This document shows positions 7,589 through 49,668 of a stretch of 64,000 nucleotides of DNA, piece by piece. The notes under the pieces are model-generated. The model was given only the letters and a program-made list of their open reading frames with translations, did not search any database and was not told the DNA's origin. Location of the stretch: NCBI GenBank assembly GCA_945863875.1, contig CAMBBS010000002.1, forward strand, positions 124,001-188,000, read 5' to 3'. The DNA comes from Desulfopila aestuarii DSM 18488 (GTDB lineage Bacteria; Desulfobacterota; Desulfobulbia; Desulfobulbales; Desulfocapsaceae). Both the position numbers and the translations under genes were made by a program. Numbering within the stretch: position 1 is the stretch's first letter; every line of letters starts with the position of its first letter.

Positions 7589-8770
7589 TCATCGGCCATA
7601 GAAACCGTAACTTTCCTCTTTTTCCTCTTCCATGGCCAGATCCGTCAGACTGGTTGTCGATTCCCCCCGCTCCGCCTTGATCCGGTCGAGCCCACGGTTC
7701 ATTTCCGCTCGATGGGAACAGTAGGTAATGGCATTTTTCTCGGTTATCACTCCCCGGCTGTACAGTTCAAGAATATGCTGATCAAAGGTGCGCATATCGA
7801 GAGCCGAACCTTCGCTGATAATATGATAGAAGGTTTTTTCTTCGGTCTCGCCGTTTAAAATGAGATCCTTCACCCGTAAACTGGTGCGCAGAATCTCCAT
7901 GGCCGCCACCCGCCCGCCACCGACACGGGGCAGCAGGCGCTGGCTGACGATCCAGCGAATAGTATCGACAAGTCTGTTGCGAATCTGCGGCTGTTCATCC
8001 TGCTCGAACATGCCGAGGATACGGTTGATGGTCTGCCCGGCATCGATGGTATGCAGGGTCGACAGTACCAGATGCCCTGTTTCCGCGGCGGTCAGACCGA
8101 TCTCCATGGTGTCCCGGTCGCGCATCTCACCGACCAGGATGACCTTTGGCGCCTGGCGAAGTGCGGCCCGCATGCCTACGGCAAAACTGCTGAAATCGTT
8201 GCCCAGTTCACGCTGATTGAAAGTGGCCTTATGCTGTTCATGGACATACTCGATGGGATCTTCCAGGGTCACCACATGCACCGGCCGCTCATGGTTGATG
8301 CGGTTGAGCAGGGCGGCAAGAGATGTCGTCTTGCCCGTGCCGGTGGCCCCAGTGAAGAGGATAAGCCCGTTCAGATCGGCGGCCATCTTGCCGAAGGCGT
8401 CGGGAAACTGCATACCCTCGATGGACGGCACTTCGGTCTCAAGTTTTCGTAAAACGGTGGTAAAATAGCCCTTCTGGGTGAAAATATTGACCCTGAACCT
8501 GGCTTTTTCGGAAAGCGAATAGGAAAGATCACACGACCCTTTTTCGACCAGATCCTTGAGCAGCCGCCGGTTATTTCCGATGAGATTAAGGGCGAAGGCT
8601 TCGGTCTGAAAGGGCGTCAGTTCGGTGACCGGCGGTGAGACGGCAACCGGCACCAGCAGCCCGGACGACTCGACCTGCAGGGATTTGCCCACGGTTATAT
8701 TGAGGTCGGAAACGTTGTCATGGGACTCCAGCATGGCCGCTATCCAGTAGTCTATTTCCGTCTTTTTCAT
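7589..8770 (-). CDS. PilT/PilU-family twitching-motility ATPase
   Basis: This is a hexameric AAA-like secretion ATPase of the type that powers type IV pilus retraction. The 393-residue protein has an N-terminal PAS-like domain (about 1-100), Walker A GATGTGKT at 141-148, the Asp box around EDPIEYVHE, a Walker B region ILVGEMRD and the His box GHLVLSTLHT. The classical PilT AIRNLIR segment is replaced by VKDLILNGE, and the C-terminus carries an acidic extension ending GFYGR. It may therefore be a PilU or PilT2 paralogue rather than the main retraction motor. The ATG has GGGAG upstream. It heads a two-gene minus-strand operon with the zinc-ribbon protein and is divergent from ilvD. Confidence 0.88.
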   Translation of the reverse strand: MKKTEIDYWIAAMLESHDNVSDLNITVGKSLQVESSGLLVPVAVSPPVTELTPFQTEAFALNLIGNNRRLLKDLVEKGSCDLSYSLSEKARFRVNIFTQKGYFTTVLRKLETEVPSIEGMQFPDAFGKMAADLNGLILFTGATGTGKTTSLAALLNRINHERPVHVVTLEDPIEYVHEQHKATFNQRELGNDFSSFAVGMRAALRQAPKVILVGEMRDRDTMEIGLTAAETGHLVLSTLHTIDAGQTINRILGMFEQDEQPQIRNRLVDTIRWIVSQRLLPRVGGGRVAAMEILRTSLRVKDLILNGETEEKTFYHIISEGSALDMRTFDQHILELYSRGVITEKNAITYCSHRAEMNRGLDRIKAERGESTTSLTDLAMEEEKEESYGFYGR

Positions 8771-8913
8771 TTTGCTCCCTTGAAAAATTGTGCAATACTA
8801 CTTGTTTTCATAGTATATTGTCTCTAAACTAGAGCGTGTTGCAAGCTTTTTTTCTATTTTTCTACATATTTCTTTCCGTTATGGATTCCCTATAAAAATT
8901 ACGGAGTACTATC

Positions 8914-10749
8914 ATGGCCATACCATTGCGCAGCGCAACCACGACAGAGGGACGAAGAATGGCCGGGGCCCGCAGCCTCTGGCGGGCCAACGGCGTCAAG
9001 GAAGAGCAGTTCGGCAAACCGATCATCGCCATCGTCAACTCCTTCACCCAGTTCGTCCCCGGCCACGTCCACCTCCATGCAATCGGCCAGCACTTGAAAA
9101 AGATTATCGACAAGGCCGGCTGCTTTGCCGCCGAATTCAATACCATCGCCATCGATGACGGTATTGCCATGGGCCACTCCGGGATGCTCTATTCCCTGCC
9201 GTCCCGGGAGCTGATTGCCGACAGCGTCGAATATATGTGCAATGCCCATACGGTTGATGCGATGATCTGCATCAGCAACTGCGACAAGATCACCCCCGGC
9301 ATGCTTATGGCCGCCATGCGTTTGAATATCCCGACCATCTTCGTCTCCGGTGGTCCCATGGAGGCCGGTGTTGATGGCGACAAGCGATACGATCTGGTCG
9401 ATGCCATGGTGCTCGCCGCCGACAGTAGTGTCAGCGACGAGGAGATCAACCGGGTGGAGCGCTGCGCCTGCCCGACCTGCGGCTCCTGCTCGGGGATGTT
9501 CACCGCCAATTCCATGAACTGCCTGAACGAGGCCCTCGGGCTGGCGCTGCCCGGCAACGGCACGGTAGTGGCCACCCACGCCAATCGTAAACTGCTCTTT
9601 GAAAGGGCGGCCGAACGTATCGTCACCATGGCCTCGGCCTGGTACGGCAGGGAAGACAGCTCGGTTCTGCCCCGGTCCATTGCCACCAAGAGCGCTTTTA
9701 TGAATTCCATGACCCTCGACATCGCCATGGGCGGCTCGACCAATACCGTACTGCACCTGCTGGCTATCGCCCATGAGGCCGGGGTCGATTTCACCATGGA
9801 CGATATTGACCGCCTGTCGCGCAAGGTTCCCAACCTGTGCAAGGTCTCACCGTCTTCCAGCTACCATATTGAAGATGTCAACCGCGCCGGCGGCATCATG
9901 GCCATCCTCGGAGAACTCGACCGGGCCGGCCTGCTCGACGCAACCGTCCATCGGGTTGACAGTCCGACCCTGCGTGAGACCCTTGACACATGGGACATCT
10001 CCCGCCCCGGCCACAGCCAGGAAGCGGCCACGCTTTACCTGAGCGCGCCGGCTGCCGCCGGGCTGAATCTGGTCATGGGTTCCCAGAGCACCATGTACAA
10101 AAAAGCCGACCTGGACCGCAAGTCCGGATGTATCCGGGACATGACCCACTGCTACAGCAAGGAAGGCGGCCTTGCCGTCCTCTTCGGCAATATTGCCGAG
10201 AACGGCTGTATCGTCAAAACCGCCGGCGTCGATCCATCAATTTTTCAATTCTCCGGCTCCGCCCGGGTGTTCTCTTCCCAGGAGGCCGCCTGCGAGGCTA
10301 TTCTCGGCGGCACCATCAAGGCCGGTGACGTGCTCATTATTCGTTACGAAGGCCCCAAGGGTGGACCCGGCATGCAGGAGATGCTCTACCCGACCTCCTA
10401 CCTGAAATCGATCCATCTCGGCGCGGCATGTGCCCTGGTCACCGACGGACGTTTCTCCGGCGGCACCTCGGGGCTGTCAATCGGTCACGTTTCGCCGGAA
10501 GCGGCGGCCGGCGGGGCCATTGCCCTGCTTGAAGACGGCGACACTATTAACATCGACATCCCGGCAAGAACGATTACTGTTGCCCTCACCGACGAAGAAC
10601 TCGCCGTGCGGAGAACAAAAGAAGAGGCAAAAGGAGCCGCCTCCTATAAACCGGCCAACCGGGACAGGAGTGTCAGTAAGGCCCTGCAGGCATACGCCCT
10701 TTTTGCCGCCTCGGCCGATAAGGGTGCGGTGCGCATTCTCCCTGAATAG
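8914..10749 (+). CDS. ilvD: Dihydroxy-acid dehydratase
   Basis: IlvD dehydrates 2,3-dihydroxy-isovalerate and 2,3-dihydroxy-3-methylvalerate to the 2-oxoacid precursors of valine, leucine and isoleucine. The 611-residue length matches the long E. coli-type enzyme. Fe-S cluster ligands are visible in the [10 protein letters not shown] and [17 protein letters not shown] motifs. The [13 protein letters not shown] motif and the C-terminal [22 protein letters not shown] substrate-site region are intact. The ATG follows CGGAGT. It is the first gene of a plus-strand set running through an oxidoreductase, a 2-oxoacid synthase and ilvA, all consistent with branched-chain 2-oxoacid metabolism. Confidence 0.97.
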
Positions 10750-42046: not shown

Positions 42047-43045
<999 letters not shown>

Positions 43046-43073: not shown

Positions 43074-43427
43074 ATGATGATCATGATCAGAGCCATTGTT
43101 CGACCGGAAAAAGCAGATGACGTTCTTGCCGCCTTGATGGATGCCGGATTTCCGGCGGTAACCAAGTATTCGGTCACCGGTCGCGGCAAACAGCGCGGTA
43201 TAAAAATCGGCGAGGTGACCTATGACGAGATTCCGAAAACCATGTTGCTCAGCGTCGTCAAGGCGGAGGACAAGGATTTCGTTATCAGCACCATCATGGA
43301 TGCGGCCCGCTCCGGCATCAAGGGCGCCTTTGGCGACGGGAAGATTTTCGTCGCCGAGGTTGAAGACGTCTACACCATCAGTTCCGGCGTGAAAGAGGGT
43401 GCCGATACGGCCGAGGTGACCGCATGA
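43074..43427 (+). CDS. nifI1: PII-like nitrogenase regulator NifI1
   Basis: NifI proteins are PII-family signal proteins that, as a NifI1-NifI2 complex, inhibit dinitrogenase when ammonium is available. The 117-residue protein starts MIMIRAIVRPEKADDVLAAL and has the PII-type core with the T-loop region TGRGKQRGIKIGE, shorter than in GlnB. The C-terminal DGKIFVAEVEDVYTISSG is the PII beta strand. The start at 43074 follows AAGGAG. Its stop overlaps nifI2 by 4 bp (ATGA). A position between nifH and nifD is typical of methanogens, clostridia and sulfate reducers. Confidence 0.95.
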   Translation: MMIMIRAIVRPEKADDVLAALMDAGFPAVTKYSVTGRGKQRGIKIGEVTYDEIPKTMLLSVVKAEDKDFVISTIMDAARSGIKGAFGDGKIFVAEVEDVYTISSGVKEGADTAEVTA

Positions 43428-43798
43428 AAGAAATTGTTGCCGTCGTACGCATGAACATGATGAACAAGACCAAGGCGGCCCTCACCGCCGCCGGCGTCAA
43501 CGCTTTTTTTGCCCATGAAGCCCAGGGACGAGGCGTTGGTTTTATCAACCGAAAATTGGTCAAAGGTGCCGAACAGGGCTATGAAGAAGCCGCCGCTCTG
43601 CTCGGGGAAAAGGGCAACCTCTACCCAAAACGAATGGTCACCATCGTCGTCGACGATGATGACGTCGACGATGTTATCGAGGCACTTATCACCACCAACC
43701 AGACCGGCAAACCCGGTGACGGTAAAATATTCGTCCTCCCCGTGGCCGACGGCGTCAGGGTGAGAACAGGCGAGAAAGGTACAAAATCAATAACATAG
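43424..43798 (+). CDS. nifI2: PII-like nitrogenase regulator NifI2
   Basis: NifI2 partners NifI1 to switch off dinitrogenase post-translationally. The 124-residue protein starts MKEIVAVVRMNMMNKTKAAL, has a T-loop segment rich in Gly, Phe and Arg (HEAQGRGVGFINRKLV), and ends DGKIFVLPVADGVRVRTGE. It carries an acidic DDDDVDDV helix near residues 77-84. It overlaps nifI1 by 4 bp and ends 18 bp before nifD. Confidence 0.94.
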   Translation: MKEIVAVVRMNMMNKTKAALTAAGVNAFFAHEAQGRGVGFINRKLVKGAEQGYEEAAALLGEKGNLYPKRMVTIVVDDDDVDDVIEALITTNQTGKPGDGKIFVLPVADGVRVRTGEKGTKSIT

Positions 43799-43816
43799 AT
43801 TGTGAGGAAACACGTC

Positions 43817-45454
43817 ATGGGAAAAGCACATAAACTGGTGCAGTGGGATCCCCACAACATCAAGGAAAAACTTCTGGAAAAATATCCGCCGAAGGTCGCC
43901 CGAAAACGCGCCAAGCAGATAATGATCAACGAGGCGCTGGAAAACACCACGCCGGAAATTGTCGCCAACGTGCGCACCATCCCCGGCATCATCACCATGC
44001 GCGGCTGCACCTATGCCGGATGCAAGGGGGTTATCATGGGACCGGCCAGCGATATCGTCAATCTCGTCCACGGGCCGATCGGCTGCAGTTTTTACGCCTG
44101 GCTGACCCGTCGCAACCAGACCGACGGTATCAACGACACGGATGCGAACTTTATCAACTACTGCATGTCCACCGACATGCAGGATTCGGATATCATCTTC
44201 GGCGGAGAAAAAAAACTCGAAGCAGCTATCCAGGAGGCCTACGAGCTGTTTCACCCGAAGGCGATCGCCGTCTTTGCCACCTGTCCGGTCGGCTTGATCG
44301 GCGACGATATCCACGCCGTGGCAAAAAAAATGCGCGAAAAGTTCGGTGACTGCAACGTCTTTGCCTTCAGCTGCGAAGGCTACAAAGGTGTGTCGCAATC
44401 CGCCGGGCACCATATCGCCAACAACCAGGTATTCACCCACGTCGTCGGCAGGAGCGAAACCGAGAAAACGGAAAAGTTTAAAATCAACCTGCTTGGCGAA
44501 TACAACATCGGCGGGGACGGCTTTGAGATCGACCGCATCTTCCAGAAATGCGGCATCACCAATATCTCAACCTTTTCCGGCAATGCGACCTATGACAAAT
44601 TTGCCTCGGCCAACCAGGCGGACCTGAGCTGCGTCATGTGCCACCGGTCGATCAACTATGTGGCCGACATGCTCGAGACCAAATACGGTATACCGTGGAT
44701 CAAGGTCAATTTTATCGGCGCGGAGGCGACGGCAAAATCGCTCAGGAAAATTGCCCAGTACTTCGGCGACCAGGAACTGACCGACCGGGTTGAAGCAGTC
44801 ATAGATGAAGAAATGCCTGCGGTGGCCTCGGCCCTGCAAGAGGTATTGCCAAGGACCCAGGGTAAAACGGCAATGATTTTTGTCGGCGGTTCCCGGGCGC
44901 ATCATTACCAGGAACTGTTTAACGAACTGGGCATGAAGACCATTTCAGCAGGCTATGAGTTCGGCCATCGTGACGACTACGAAGGCAGGGAGGTCATTCC
45001 TACCCTGAAGGTCGACGCCGACAGCAGGAACATAGAGGAAATAAAAGTCGAAGCGGATCCTTTCTTGTACAAGCCGAGAAAAACGCCGGAAGAACTGGTG
45101 GCGCTTGAAGAGGCCGGCCTTGAATTCAAGGCCTACACCGGGTTGAACCCGGATATGGCATTGAACACGCTGGTCGTCGATGACCTGAACCAGTATGAGG
45201 CGGAAAAACTGGTGCAACTGATGAAGCCGGACCTGTTCTGTGCGGGCATCAAGGAAAAATATTCCATCCAGAAGCTCGGCGTGCCGATGAAACAGCTGCA
45301 CAGCTACGATTCAGGCGGACCGTATGCCGGCTTCAAGGGTGCGGTCAATTTCTATCAAGAGATCGACCGGTTGGTCAACAGCAAAATCTGGAGCTATATG
45401 AAGGCGCCCTGGCAGGAAAAACCGGAACTTTCCGCGACCTACGTCTGGGAGTAA
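43817..45454 (+). CDS. nifD: Nitrogenase molybdenum-iron protein alpha chain
   Basis: NifD holds the FeMo-cofactor and part of the P-cluster. The 545-residue protein has the P-cluster cysteines in RGCTYAGCKG (first Cys), GPIGCSFYAW and FATCPVGLIGD. The FeMo-cofactor ligands are the Cys in CVMCHRSINYV and the His of LHSYDSGGPY. Residues equivalent to A. vinelandii Gln191 and His195 are kept in VSQSAGHHIANN, and Arg96 in WLTRRN. These support catalytic competence. The start at 43817 follows GTGAGG; the frame is open to 43802. It lies between nifI2 and nifK. Confidence 0.98.
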   Translation: MGKAHKLVQWDPHNIKEKLLEKYPPKVARKRAKQIMINEALENTTPEIVANVRTIPGIITMRGCTYAGCKGVIMGPASDIVNLVHGPIGCSFYAWLTRRNQTDGINDTDANFINYCMSTDMQDSDIIFGGEKKLEAAIQEAYELFHPKAIAVFATCPVGLIGDDIHAVAKKMREKFGDCNVFAFSCEGYKGVSQSAGHHIANNQVFTHVVGRSETEKTEKFKINLLGEYNIGGDGFEIDRIFQKCGITNISTFSGNATYDKFASANQADLSCVMCHRSINYVADMLETKYGIPWIKVNFIGAEATAKSLRKIAQYFGDQELTDRVEAVIDEEMPAVASALQEVLPRTQGKTAMIFVGGSRAHHYQELFNELGMKTISAGYEFGHRDDYEGREVIPTLKVDADSRNIEEIKVEADPFLYKPRKTPEELVALEEAGLEFKAYTGLNPDMALNTLVVDDLNQYEAEKLVQLMKPDLFCAGIKEKYSIQKLGVPMKQLHSYDSGGPYAGFKGAVNFYQEIDRLVNSKIWSYMKAPWQEKPELSATYVWE

Positions 45455-45522: not shown

Positions 45523-46896
45523 ATGTTACTACGACATACACCTCAAGAAATAACAGAGCGTAAAGCCCTGATGATAAACCCGGCCAAGACCTGTCAGCCG
45601 ATCGGTGCCATGTACGCCGCCCTGGGAATAAAAGGATGTCTGCCGCACAGTCATGGTTCCCAGGGTTGCTGCGCCTATCATCGCAGCACCCTGACCAGGC
45701 ACTACAAGGAACCGATTTCCGCAGCCACCAGTTCCTTTACCGAGGGTGCGTCGGTCTTCGGCGGGGCGGCTAATCTGATACAGGCAATCGATAATATCTT
45801 CACGGTCTACCAGCCGGAGGTTATCGCCGTGCATACCACCTGCCTGTCGGAAACAATCGGCGACGACCTGCCGCAGATTTTCGACAAGGCCAAAAAAGAC
45901 AAAAAAGTCCCGGCGGGCAAGACTGTTCTCGGCGCCCCGACGCCAAGCTATGTCGGTTCCCATGTCACCGGTTTTTCCAACATGGTCAAGGCGATGGCGG
46001 CTCTGGCCGAGCCCTCGACGAAGAAAAACGGCAAGATCAACGTCATTCCCGGCTGGGTAGAGCCCTCGGACATGGAAGAGATCAAGAGGCTTGCCGCCAT
46101 GGTTGGCGCCAGAATCAACATGTTCCCGGACACCTCGGGGGTGCTCAATGGACCTTTGACCGGCGAATACAAGATGTTCCCCGACAGCGGCGCCTCCATC
46201 GACGACATTAAAAACAGCGGCAGCAGTATCGGGACCCTCGCCCTCGGCGAATGGTGTTCCGCCGATGCAGCCAGACTGCTCGATACTAAATGCAAGGTGC
46301 CCTGCTCTATCCTCGATATGCCCTTTGGGCTGCAGGCCACCGATCGATTCATCGATGCCCTGAGAACTGTGGCCGGCACCTCGGTACCCGATGAGATCGC
46401 CGCGGAAAGAGGCACCCTGGTGGATTTGATTTCCGATATGCACCAGTATTTCTACGGCAAGAAGGTTGCGCTGGTCGGAGATCCCGATCAGGTGATTGCC
46501 ATGACCGAATTCCTCGTGGCCATCGATATGCGTCCCGTGCATATCATCACCGGAACGCCGGGTAAAAAATTCGAGTCCCGGATAAAAGAGATCACCAAGG
46601 ACATGGGCCGTGCGGTCAATGTCAAGGCCAAGGGCGACATGTTCCTGCTGCACCAGTGGATAAAAAATGAGCCGGTTGAGCTGCTTATCGGCAACACCTA
46701 CTGCAAGTACATCGCCCGGGATGAAGACCTGCCTTTTGTTCGCTGGGGTTTCCCCATTCTTGACCGCCAGGGGCATCAGCACTTTCCGACGGTCGGCTAC
46801 AAAGGGGGACTGCGCCTGCTGGAGAAGATCCTCGGCGTATTACTTGATCGTAAAGATCGAGACGACCCTGAAGAAAAGTTTGAACTGGTCCTGTAA
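45523..46896 (+). CDS. nifK: Nitrogenase molybdenum-iron protein beta chain
   Basis: NifK pairs with NifD to form the dinitrogenase tetramer and shares the P-cluster. The 457-residue protein is the short form lacking the long N-terminal arm of Azotobacter NifK. P-cluster ligand cysteines are in PAKTCQPIGAMYAA (about 22), GSQGCCAYHRS (about 46) and HTTCLSETIGDD. The SHVTGF segment keeps the Ser position that can bind the oxidised P-cluster. The C-terminal region has HQHFPTVGYKGG. The ATG follows AAGGGAAG. An 8-bp hairpin lies 14 bp after its stop, before the next gene. Confidence 0.97.
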   Translation: MLLRHTPQEITERKALMINPAKTCQPIGAMYAALGIKGCLPHSHGSQGCCAYHRSTLTRHYKEPISAATSSFTEGASVFGGAANLIQAIDNIFTVYQPEVIAVHTTCLSETIGDDLPQIFDKAKKDKKVPAGKTVLGAPTPSYVGSHVTGFSNMVKAMAALAEPSTKKNGKINVIPGWVEPSDMEEIKRLAAMVGARINMFPDTSGVLNGPLTGEYKMFPDSGASIDDIKNSGSSIGTLALGEWCSADAARLLDTKCKVPCSILDMPFGLQATDRFIDALRTVAGTSVPDEIAAERGTLVDLISDMHQYFYGKKVALVGDPDQVIAMTEFLVAIDMRPVHIITGTPGKKFESRIKEITKDMGRAVNVKAKGDMFLLHQWIKNEPVELLIGNTYCKYIARDEDLPFVRWGFPILDRQGHQHFPTVGYKGGLRLLEKILGVLLDRKDRDDPEEKFELVL

Positions 46897-46910
46897 TACC
46901 GGCTTTTCCC

Positions 46911-46940
46911 GCAGCAGCCGAGCGTTCATGCCGCTGCTGC
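46911..46940 (+). promoter_or_regulatory. Intercistronic hairpin after nifK
   Basis: GCAGCAGC (46911-46918) and GCTGCTGC (46933-46940) form a perfect 8-bp stem with a 14-base loop. No long T-run follows. It may stabilise or process the nifHDK mRNA and lower expression of the next gene. Confidence 0.5.
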
Positions 46941-46955
46941 CTTTGCTATAAAGCT

Positions 46956-48140
46956 ATGAAGTTTTTGGTGAAAAAGATGACTGAGCTCTCCAGTACACAC
47001 CGTCACGATTGCCGTTGTTGGCAGAAAACAGACAAAACGGCCGGAGTTATCCACCTGCCCATTGCGCCCCAGATTGTCGCCCGAACACGGTTTTCGCCGC
47101 CGCCCCCTGTGCGCAATTCAAGCATCATGGTTCCCGAGGCAATGGACTACTTAGCCCAGGCAATGCAAGGGAAGCCGGACGTCACCATGGTGGCCATAAC
47201 CGGCCCCGGCGATCCGCTGGCAACACCAGGGATCACCATAAGTGCGGTGGAGCAGATTCGAACACGTTATCCGGGACTGAAGATCGGCCTGAAGACGCTC
47301 GGCATGGGCGGCGACAAATTAGCAGGCGCTCTCGCCCAGGCCGGCGTCGATTATGTTGAAATGCAGGTGGATGGCGTTCGTGCCGAGATTCTTGAAAAAA
47401 TCTATGCCTGGATCAGGCCGGGTCTGAAGACTCTGAAGATATCCGAAGCCGTGAAACTGCTCCTCAAGGAACAGCAAAACGCGATTCCGGCACTCAAATT
47501 TCATAATGTCGATGTGTCCATCCTGACGACGCTCTACCCCGGATGCAACATCGACCATGTGACGAAAATCGCAGTTGAAATGATGGAACTCGGCAGCAGG
47601 AGCATCTCGCTTCTGCCCTACAAACCCGAACCGGGCGCAGAAGTTGATCTGGACAGCCCAGACGCGAAGATCCTCCAGGAAGCCGCGGAAAAAGTGCGCA
47701 GATATCTGCCCATAGTCGAGCCGACGCTGCTGCAGCCGACTGGCCATTCCGGCGGCGAAGCAATTTCCGAGCAGCCGTATCAGGCCAAGCCGAGTAAACA
47801 GCGGCCGAATGTGGCGGTCGTCAGCTCCAACGGCATCGAAATCGACCTGCATCTCGGCCAGGCCAGCCGTTTTCTGATTTACGGCCCCCGGGCAGACGGT
47901 CTGCCCTGTCTTCTCAGCACCAGAGATGCCCCGGAACCGGGCACAGGAAAAAACCGCTGGCAGGACGTGGCCGCTCTCCTGGCCGACTGCTTTACCCTTC
48001 TTGCCGTCAGTGCCGGGGAAGGTCCTCGGCGCATTCTCGGCGAAACAGGCCTCAAGGTGCACCTTGCCGAGGACAACATCGAAGGGCTTGTCGATGTGCT
48101 GTACGGCGGCGGTAAAAAATGTAAAAAAAATAAAAAATAA
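46956..48140 (+). CDS. NifB-NifX-like protein lacking the radical-SAM cysteines
   Basis: NifB normally makes the NifB-co core of nitrogenase cofactor by radical-SAM chemistry. Here the NifB frame is recognisable: GVIHLPIAP at 30-38 (NifB has RIHLPVAP), AITGPGDPLATP at 80-91, and RRYLPIVEPT at 248-257. The CxxxCxxC SAM motif that should follow IHLPVAP is replaced by QIVARTRFSPPPP at 39-51, and the C-terminal Cys pair after RYLP is absent. Only Cys19, 21, 197, 318, 345 and 389 remain. A NifX-like cofactor-binding domain spans about 284-385 (RPNVAVVSSNGIEIDLHLG onward). It should therefore be non-catalytic and may bind or carry cofactor. The start could instead be the ATG at 46977. Confidence 0.75.
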   Translation: MKFLVKKMTELSSTHRHDCRCWQKTDKTAGVIHLPIAPQIVARTRFSPPPPVRNSSIMVPEAMDYLAQAMQGKPDVTMVAITGPGDPLATPGITISAVEQIRTRYPGLKIGLKTLGMGGDKLAGALAQAGVDYVEMQVDGVRAEILEKIYAWIRPGLKTLKISEAVKLLLKEQQNAIPALKFHNVDVSILTTLYPGCNIDHVTKIAVEMMELGSRSISLLPYKPEPGAEVDLDSPDAKILQEAAEKVRRYLPIVEPTLLQPTGHSGGEAISEQPYQAKPSKQRPNVAVVSSNGIEIDLHLGQASRFLIYGPRADGLPCLLSTRDAPEPGTGKNRWQDVAALLADCFTLLAVSAGEGPRRILGETGLKVHLAEDNIEGLVDVLYGGGKKCKKNKK

Positions 48141-48206
48141 ACTGCCTGCACAAACAACAACCTGTTTTTACAAGTATTTTACCCTCAACACCGGAGTACA
48201 TATACC

Positions 48207-48509
48207 ATGGCCTTACCTGCGAGGCAGATTCTTCTCTGCCAGAGTTTTCGATCAAAAGGCGACCCCAAGGGGATCTGCCACAAACAGACCGACGGTTTTC
48301 TGCAGTATATCGAGGAGGAAATTCTCGATCGCGGTCTGGATATGCAGATTGTCGCCACCGGCTGTCTGAAACAGTGTGAATCCGGGCCAATCATGGTCAT
48401 CCAGCCGGACAATCTCTGGTTCAAAAACATTGACAGCGAGGAGGCGATTGATGCGGTGCTCGATGGGCTGGAAGACGGCGAGCCGCCAAGCGACTATCTC
48501 CTCGCATAG
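48207..48509 (+). CDS. Thioredoxin-like [2Fe-2S] ferredoxin in the nif cluster
   Basis: This 100-residue protein resembles the [2Fe-2S] ferredoxin of Clostridium pasteurianum, which is known to bind the nitrogenase MoFe protein. Its four ligand cysteines are Cys11, Cys24, Cys53 and Cys57, as C-x12-C and C-x3-C, in a thioredoxin-like fold (VATGCLKQCESGPIM at 49-63). A GGAG lies upstream of the ATG. It is encoded between the NifB-NifX-like gene and a GNAT gene, so it is likely a nitrogenase-linked electron carrier or assembly partner. Confidence 0.88.
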   Translation: MALPARQILLCQSFRSKGDPKGICHKQTDGFLQYIEEEILDRGLDMQIVATGCLKQCESGPIMVIQPDNLWFKNIDSEEAIDAVLDGLEDGEPPSDYLLA

Positions 48510-48515
48510 GGCACA

Positions 48516-48986
48516 ATGGACATATCGCCGATAATCCGCCCGGCCGAACAGTCGGATGTCGACGGCATGGTGTTGCTGCTGCAGCAACTTTTCGCCCTTG
48601 AAAAAGACTTTGCTTTTGATGCAGATCGACAAAAAAAAGGGCTGAATCTGCTGCTTGAGGCGGCAAACGGCGTGATCATGGTCGCCTGGGCAAAGCAGGG
48701 GGTGATCGGCATGGGCAGTGGTCAGCTGGTTATTTCCACCGCCGAGGGCGGGCCGTCGCTGTTCGTTGAAGATGTCGTGGTACAGCCATCACGGCACAGC
48801 CACGGAATCGGCACCAGGCTGCTGCAGACACTTGGCGACTGGGGGGCGGCAAGAGGGGCAAGACGCATGCAGCTGCTGGCCGATCGGAACAACGCTTTTG
48901 CCCTCGAATTTTACCATCGCCGCGGCTGGCAGCAAACGCAACTCATCTGTCTGCGAAAATTTCACCGTGAAAGGGACCAAACATGA
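48516..48986 (+). CDS. GNAT-family N-acetyltransferase, nif-linked
   Basis: This 156-residue protein has a GNAT fold. The acetyl-CoA binding region is VEDVVVQPSRHSHGIGTRLLQ (about 87-107), with the R/Q-x-x-G-x-G/A loop as RHSHGIG. The substrate strand FYHRRGWQQTQL (about 130-141) is the C-terminal signature. It begins 6 bp after the ferredoxin gene and overlaps the next gene by 4 bp (ATGA), so it belongs to the nif operon tail. It could acetylate a protein or small molecule; the target is unknown. Confidence 0.88.
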   Translation: MDISPIIRPAEQSDVDGMVLLLQQLFALEKDFAFDADRQKKGLNLLLEAANGVIMVAWAKQGVIGMGSGQLVISTAEGGPSLFVEDVVVQPSRHSHGIGTRLLQTLGDWGAARGARRMQLLADRNNAFALEFYHRRGWQQTQLICLRKFHRERDQT

Positions 48987-49402
48987 ACATTGTACAGATT
49001 GACAACTGGCGCGACTATCGGCGGGACGGCGAGCAGTTTCTGCACACCGCCACGGCGGCACACCAGAAAAAACGCAAGGCCTTCTCGACGGACACCCTCT
49101 ACAATGTCACCTGTATGGCCATCGAAAAGCTGATCATGGCCTTTTTGATGAAAAACGGTGATCTTGCCGAAAACCATACCATGGCCGATCTGCTCAGGGC
49201 GCTGCAGCTCCATCTCGGCGATATTCCTGATCTCACCGAAAAGCTTCTGTATATGGACACCTTTCAGGAGATATGCTCGCTGGATAATTTTACCATCCAT
49301 ACGCCAAGCGAGGATGATGTCGCTAAAATGCTCGCCATCGGTGAGGATGTCCGGGCGCTTTTGCACCCCCATCTCTATGACCAGCGTAGTTCTCTACATT
49401 AA
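48983..49402 (+). CDS. HEPN-like helical protein, nif-linked
   Basis: This 139-residue protein is mostly helical. The AIEKLIMAFLMKNGDLAENH segment (about 51-70) followed by TMADLLRALQL resembles the HEPN fold, where an AxxKALKALL helix is followed by a THDLxxL motif. The canonical RxxxxxH RNase motif is not seen, so it is not an obvious toxin. It overlaps the GNAT gene by 4 bp, so the two proteins are probably made together. I do not know a function. HEPN assignment is by pattern only. Confidence 0.6.
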   Translation: MNIVQIDNWRDYRRDGEQFLHTATAAHQKKRKAFSTDTLYNVTCMAIEKLIMAFLMKNGDLAENHTMADLLRALQLHLGDIPDLTEKLLYMDTFQEICSLDNFTIHTPSEDDVAKMLAIGEDVRALLHPHLYDQRSSLH

Positions 49403-49422
49403 CAATCAACAAGGACAATATC

Positions 49423-49668
49423 ATGGAAAAAGAAACCTTAGAAAAGATCTTTGAATATGCTTCGATGCCGGTGCATGGCACCCTGTCGAGAAAAATCAGG
49501 AAAAATGTCAAAGTGCAGATCAACGAAGGGGCGATATATGAAAGCGCGGTGCTCTTTCTCGGCGACGGCTTTATCCGTGTCACCGAACAGAAGGAAAAAG
49601 AGGCCGTCAATACCTATTACGGCTGGGATAAAATTGCCTCCATCCGCACCCTTAGCCTGGCCGAATAA
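49423..49668 (+). CDS. Small hypothetical beta-rich protein, nif operon tail
   Basis: This 81-residue protein lies 21 bp after the HEPN-like gene on the same strand. After a short helix (residues 1-20) the rest looks like four or five beta strands (VKVQINEGAIYESAVLFLG, DGFIRVTE, VNTYYGWDKIASIRTL), a layout like a small Sm-like or SH3-like barrel. No Sm signature was identified, so the fold is a guess. An ACAAGGAC sequence precedes the ATG. No function is recognised. Confidence 0.7.
   Translation: MEKETLEKIFEYASMPVHGTLSRKIRKNVKVQINEGAIYESAVLFLGDGFIRVTEQKEKEAVNTYYGWDKIASIRTLSLAE

Follow-up and report, generated by a model that had tools for sequence, protein, structure and literature searches.

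The nif operon of Desulfopila aestuarii DSM 18488 encodes, immediately 3' of nifK, a NifB-NifX-type protein in which the CxxxCxxC motif of the radical SAM cluster is missing. This raises the question of whether the gene is a decayed nifB or belongs to a family with its own function in nitrogenase maturation. The locus was analyzed within a window of 64,000 nucleotides (the whole stretch of DNA examined, to which plain coordinates refer). The original prediction of a NifB-NifX-like protein behind nifK without CxxxCxxC held, except that the start probably lies 21 bases later than 46956: since the orthologues begin there, position 46977 (MTEL...), 7 codons downstream, is likely the better start. 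The resulting protein of 387 residues is composed of a NifB-type barrel (residues ~20-250) and a NifX-like domain (~270-387). The features of the locus are listed in Table 1.

Table 1. Features of the nif locus in the window.
Feature	Position	Strand	Remark
sigma-54-type site TGGCAC-N5-TTGCT	42073..42088	+	upstream of nifH
nifH	42215..43045	+	
nifI1	43077..43427	+	PII-like
nifI2	43424..43798	+	PII-like
nifD	43802..45454	+	
nifK	45523..46896	+	directly upstream of the Cys-less gene
Cys-less NifB-NifX-type gene	46977..48140	+	387 aa; orthologue alignment
VARTRF, residues 34-39	47076..47093	+	conserved stretch replacing CxxxCxxC of the SAM cluster
GPGDP, residues 76-80	47202..47216	+	retained NifB motif (AGPG in NifB)
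HLG, residues 292-294	47850..47858	+	histidine motif in the NifX-like domain; putative cofactor ligand by alignment
2Fe-2S ferredoxin	48207..48509	+	thioredoxin-like; downstream neighbour
GNAT acetyltransferase	48516..48986	+	often next after the ferredoxin
HEPN-like protein	48983..49402	+	below Pfam gathering score; often next

All genes are encoded on one strand in the order nifH-nifI1-nifI2-nifD-nifK-Cys-less gene-2Fe-2S ferredoxin-GNAT-HEPN-like, in which the two PII-like genes are taken to be nifI1 and nifI2 from the usual nifH-I1-I2-D-K order. The sigma-54-type site upstream of nifH, which is likely the promoter of the nif operon, is the sole match to the pattern without mismatch; with up to one mismatch, 5 matches were found compared to 4.9 expected. 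A scan of 46700-49500 gave no sigma-70-type site, and matches to the NifA-type UAS pattern showed no excess (5 versus 8.3 expected). It had been stated that no catalytic nifB is present in the window, which is true, yet a check of the remaining genome identified a canonical nifB (G000:C2:208300-209478) in which CxxxCxxC is intact. It is located on the same contig, behind nifE-nifN and 20 kb beyond the end of the window. A genome without catalytic nifB was thereby ruled out. The nif cluster is split, as nifE begins ~35 kb behind nifK (window 46896 to G000:C2:205541), whereas in BRH_c16a (L035) nifH to nifB are found within ~12 kb. Distant from the nif genes, two adjacent small PF02579 proteins are encoded at G000:C8:117885-118559, and similar pairs are present in relatives without nifD, e.g. 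G017 and G019.

The Cys-less NifB-type protein represents a conserved family rather than a decayed gene. Of 57 related genomes examined, 37 harbor nifD, and an orthologue (39-100% identity) was detected in 33 of these but in none of the 20 without nifD. In the four nifD-containing genomes without the gene, the contig ends inside nifK (L110), nifK is directly followed by the ferredoxin (L111 and L112), or neither the Cys-less gene nor the ferredoxin is present (L113). A full-length NifB match was found in 32 of the 33 carriers; the remaining one (G034) shows only the C-terminal part, at a contig end. In 40 loci selected for holding the Cys-less gene, nifK is located directly upstream in 39, the last one (L087) being cut by the contig end, and the ferredoxin follows next in all 40. 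In G551 (L128) the gene-ferredoxin-GNAT-HEPN block occurs without nifK in a 10-kb stretch. For 24 of the 25 closest listed pairs dN/dS ranged from 0.07 to 0.66, and one pair was saturated. In alignment A1, CxxxCxxC is also lacking, in the same frame, from the other 28 rows (36-61% identical), the closer of which retain the replacement stretch LPVAPQ-vARTRFSPPPP. The claim that a frameshift does not explain the loss therefore held. Other nif operons with the Cys-less form adjoining nifK, for which a search had been suggested, do exist, and the position is nearly fixed. A randomly decayed nifB without orthologues, which would have refuted the original prediction, is excluded.

Loss and retention of NifB residues were counted in an alignment of 93 Cys-less family proteins and 53 NifB, from which one of 93 initial family proteins was excluded for its length (330 aa or less) and to which L168, classed as NifB by the blast rule, was added; a smaller earlier set (58 family proteins, 35 NifB) had suggested a more complete Cys loss and is superseded. 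The complete Cx3Cx2C motif was found in none of the 93 family proteins and in all 53 NifB, the three SAM-cluster columns containing Cys in 0, 3 and 2 of 93 compared to 53 of 53. The YDC cysteine is absent (0/93), and of the C-terminal Cx2CRxDAxG pair the first Cys is present in one protein and the second in 35; for the window protein, the predicted absence of the Cys pair after RYLP was confirmed. Likewise, the ExRP motif is not met, with a gap at its Glu and Arg in 91 of 93, nor is TxTxN, whose second Thr column is occupied by L in 62 and by Q in 13 proteins (VEMQVD in the window protein). The assignment of cysteines to the SAM, K1 and K2 clusters was taken from the literature (PMC6053413) and transferred here by motif. 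Loss of the SAM-binding cluster site is thus shown by sequence, and we infer from it that the family should not perform radical chemistry. This loss of catalytic residues supports the proposed inactive relative of NifB. The SAM-cluster loss held, but some NifB-type cysteines remain elsewhere in the family: the N-terminal Cys of the HPC column in 56 of 93 (HDC in the window protein), C114 in 34 and C264 in 35. All three are found together in 28 proteins and none of them in 29, while the window protein retains only the N-terminal one.

Other positions are kept. The AGPG motif is met, with both Gly and the following Asp/Glu in 93 of 93, the Ala position being Thr in the window protein. W155, Q176, the DC Cys and both His and Gly of HLG are invariant (93/93 each), and N201 is present in 92. 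In the R-x-R-F stretch beside the lost SAM motif the two R were found in 73 and 80 and the F in 75 of 93. A basic C-terminal tail (at least 4 K/R in the last 12 residues) is carried by 81 of the 93 family proteins and by none of the 53 NifB, and the whole protein has on average a net charge of -5.0 in the family versus +0.8 in NifB.

According to an AlphaFold2 model of the window protein (mean pLDDT 86.3, pTM 0.73), the family is predicted to retain the NifB barrel fold. Residues 23-248 superpose on NifB 7jma (Z 29.0, rmsd 1.5, 214 aligned), and the best non-NifB structure match to the barrel reached Z 19.0. The family therefore shares with two-domain NifB (TIGR01290) the order of radical SAM and NifX-like domain, the barrel fold, the GPG glycines, W155, Q176, the HLG His and Gly and the DC Cys, but differs by the absence of CxxxCxxC, ExRP, TxTxN and CxxCRxDA. 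TIGR01290 matched 29 of 29 A1 members, and the window protein (91.5 bits) did not reach its curated cut-off of 343.65. The Radical_SAM profile matched 27 of 29, the window protein scoring below the gathering score, and PF02579 matched 29 of 29 at E<=0.001, with 28.7 bits for the window protein compared to a gathering score of 26.3. The NifX-like domain matches 1p90 (E 1.1e-4), which is the core of NafY (PMC8496260), and NifX of the NifEN-NifX complex (9ian, E 0.0073). The invariant HLG histidine aligns with H35 of NifX, which ligates NifB-co (PMC13128457), and with the His of the NafY HFG motif, within which H121 ligates FeMo-co (PMC8496260).

The slot behind nifK was tallied in stretches in which nifK is followed by 900 bases or more. 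L116, L161 and L179 had been left out beforehand, and of 103 stretches 10 had no nifK and 1 was cut, leaving 92. These were mostly chosen for family or NifB search matches, so the fractions are not prevalences. The slot was occupied by the Cys-less form in 64, by a paralogue that keeps CxxxCxxC in 4 (L165, L169, L170 and L182) and by a NifX domain alone in 7, and it was empty in 17. In all 75 occupied slots HLG is present and a ferredoxin is found within 2.6 kb of nifK. The Cys-keeping slot paralogues are already damaged, as the HPC and C114 cysteines are missing from L165 and L169, and L170 additionally lacks ExRP and the C-terminal Cys pair. The NifX-only genes (L195, L202-L207) all belong to genus g334, where they were present in 7 of 7 genomes opened, and do not carry the basic C-terminal tail. 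Empty slots include Nitratidesulfovibrio vulgaris, and 13 of the 17 have a ferredoxin close behind nifK; in G039, G044 and G045, the only empty-slot genomes checked, no Cys-less gene was found elsewhere in the genome.

A tree was calculated from 76 rows picked for diversity (42 Cys-less and 34 others; SH-aLRT support, midpoint root). Thirty NifB were placed on one side of a branch (99), three Cys-keeping paralogues grouped together (99), and the 43 Cys-less rows, L168 included, were separated from all others by a branch with an SH-aLRT of 94. At this support, a single origin of the Cys loss is neither shown nor rejected; four rows (L118, L058, L171 and L034) have long end branches. If NifB is placed outside, the tree suggests a single duplication and subsequent loss in steps, albeit with an untested root and some long branches. 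The NifX-only tree comprised only 118 columns and leaves the origin of this form unresolved; in it, L207 (NifX-only) is labelled 'cysless' by the length rule.

With moderate confidence, we favor the interpretation that the Cys-less protein is a NifX/NafY-like carrier or insertion factor for NifB-co or FeMo-co, built on a dead NifB barrel; its cargo, partner, direction of transfer and the binding itself are inferred. The NifX domain is regarded as the working part on the grounds of its invariant histidine, the loss of the catalytic site and the occupation of the slot by this domain alone in one genus, and we infer that the NifX function is what is selected. In such a mechanism, the NifX domain would pick up NifB-co or finished FeMo-co via the HLG histidine, the dead barrel, perhaps together with the basic C-terminal tail, would dock on NifEN or apo-NifDK, and the protein would shield the cofactor and hand it over, as NifX and NafY do elsewhere. 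The place behind nifK may favor a NafY-like step, i.e. delivery to apo-NifDK; in A. vinelandii, nifX is located behind nifEN (PMC13128457). NafY has a separate docking domain for apo-NifDK (PMC8496260), whose part the barrel could take, and the C terminus of NifX anchors it to NifEN through salt bridges (PMC13128457). NafY, an escort of FeMo-co and prop of apo-NifDK, resembles the family in its two domains and its C-terminal NifX-like domain with the aligned cofactor histidine, but carries its own all-helical N-terminal domain for apo-NifDK binding (PMC8496260) where the family has a NifB-type barrel. NifX, the carrier of NifB-co to NifEN, shares the PF02579 domain and the histidine at the place of H35, whereas the Cys-less protein has 387 aa with a dead barrel, is encoded behind nifK and coexists with stand-alone NifX in at least five genomes.

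Several observations speak against a carrier. The 17 empty slots of 92 indicate that the Cys-less gene is not universal in nif genomes, and at least 5 of the 33 carriers encode a stand-alone NifX beside nifB as well, which would make a plain NifX role superfluous in them. The three non-SAM cysteines in 28 of 93 could possibly mean a cluster-holding barrel. Moreover, known cofactor-binding sites are positive (PMC13128457), whereas the family is acidic in net charge (-5.0). The NifX-only form has no basic tail. Of the two functions originally proposed, carrier of NifB-co or FeMo-co and pseudoenzyme regulator, the carrier is favored by inference only. The further proposal, that the gene adjoining nifK stands for a candidate accessory family of the nif system, is supported by conservation, co-occurrence with nifD and the fixed place, and the invariant histidine and the NifX-only genes in the slot fit as well. 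A bolder reading, which we consider slightly more likely to fail than to hold, is that a duplicated radical-SAM maturase became a non-catalytic FeMo-cofactor insertion chaperone whose dead barrel docks on apo-nitrogenase. Its steps would be seen in living genomes as SAM-motif paralogues, SAM-less forms with the three other cluster cysteines, Cys-stripped forms and the NifX domain alone.

Among the rival explanations, a pseudoenzyme regulator or placeholder remains possible. Such a protein would occupy the docking site of NifB, NifEN or apo-NifDK without cofactor and thereby tune the flux or protect the empty site. The NifB fold with a dead active site and the position at nifK are in line with this, NifY and NafX, regarded as possible placeholders or antagonists (PMC13128457), are precedents, and MoFe protein devoid of cofactor is co-purified with NifY and with NafY (PMC6016461). 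However, NifY and NafX lack the cofactor histidine (PMC13128457), which the family keeps in 93 of 93 proteins and in the 7 NifX-only genes. A product scaffold or store, in which the barrel holds NifB-co or a 4Fe cluster via the HPC Cys, C114 and C264 without SAM chemistry, appears unlikely: 28 of 93 proteins keep these cysteines together despite the lost SAM cysteines, but 29 keep none, and the window protein has only the N-terminal one.

A role as electron-transfer adaptor, linking the adjacent 2Fe-2S ferredoxin with the MoFe protein, is even less probable. All 75 occupied slots are followed by the ferredoxin, and the 2Fe-2S ferredoxin of C. pasteurianum binds MoFe protein (PMC8561814); however, 13 stretches have the ferredoxin directly behind nifK without the Cys-less protein, and FeSI of A. 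vinelandii shows no MoFe binding (PMC8561814). A decayed nifB or a sequencing or assembly error, for which only the lost catalytic cysteines of the window protein speak, is practically excluded, as the orthologues share the replacement, the position is fixed and dN/dS is below 1 in every listed pair with a value. Specifically, a frameshift or assembly error was ruled out by the orthologues keeping the same frame, and a pseudogene by nifD co-occurrence, the fixed locus and dN/dS.

Members of the family may have been met before. Arragain et al. (2017) discarded 28% of 390 'NifB' sequences as misannotated NifX; all of these had a NifX domain, and the majority lacked Cx3Cx2C (PMC5715403). These sequences resemble the Cys-less family in both respects, but no family, neighbourhood or barrel is described in the relevant sections of that paper; that family members are among them is possible, though no more than a guess. 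No description of the family was found in the titles and abstract starts of the open-access literature searched, which does not cover subscription papers. The genome paper of Desulfocapsa sulfexigens lists nifHDK, a 'nitrogenase associated protein' and nifENB (PMC3739170). If the carrier interpretation is true, the protein would add to the maturation factors of nitrogenase in anaerobes, where cofactor delivery has received little attention. It would also be a clear example of the conversion of a radical-SAM enzyme to a cofactor escort and a new candidate for cofactor delivery to NifDK in engineered hosts. The graded slot occupants make the loss of chemistry directly testable, and counts of nifB by homology can mislead in such genomes.

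Within the order of the window's genome, 133 of 242 sampled genomes gave a row of at least 303 bits, a limit that lies above the first row resembling NifB by frame length; the count was made by hand, and for 47 of the 133, by our count, the sequence itself was read. Outside this order, family members were found in f29, f54 and G413, and many more are listed in the class of G095. The carriers Desulfobulbaceae bacterium BRH_c16a and Desulforhopalus sp. GLR1684 are the two loci of one contig scan. On plasmids, 154 records matched, all below 60% identity, and the five opened were all canonical NifB regions; two plasmids of Nitratidesulfovibrio vulgaris have nifK and the ferredoxin without a Cys-less gene in between. 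On the plasmid of N. vulgaris DP4, nifB is followed by a gene with the annotation antiviral reverse transcriptase Drt2 (L161, 13844-15127); this gene is not listed at the corresponding place in strain L2 (L160), where the gene table is incomplete. In L083 (G026, 7899-9271) the nifK matches are split in three, as from frameshifts or sequence errors. The GNAT acetyltransferase and the HEPN-like protein (window 48516-49402) are present behind the ferredoxin in most loci compared. Near a nifB, L178 (G768:C45, 9-3105) harbors NifD/NifK-like genes 31-33% identical to those of the window, which possibly encode an alternative nitrogenase or a nitrogenase-like enzyme.
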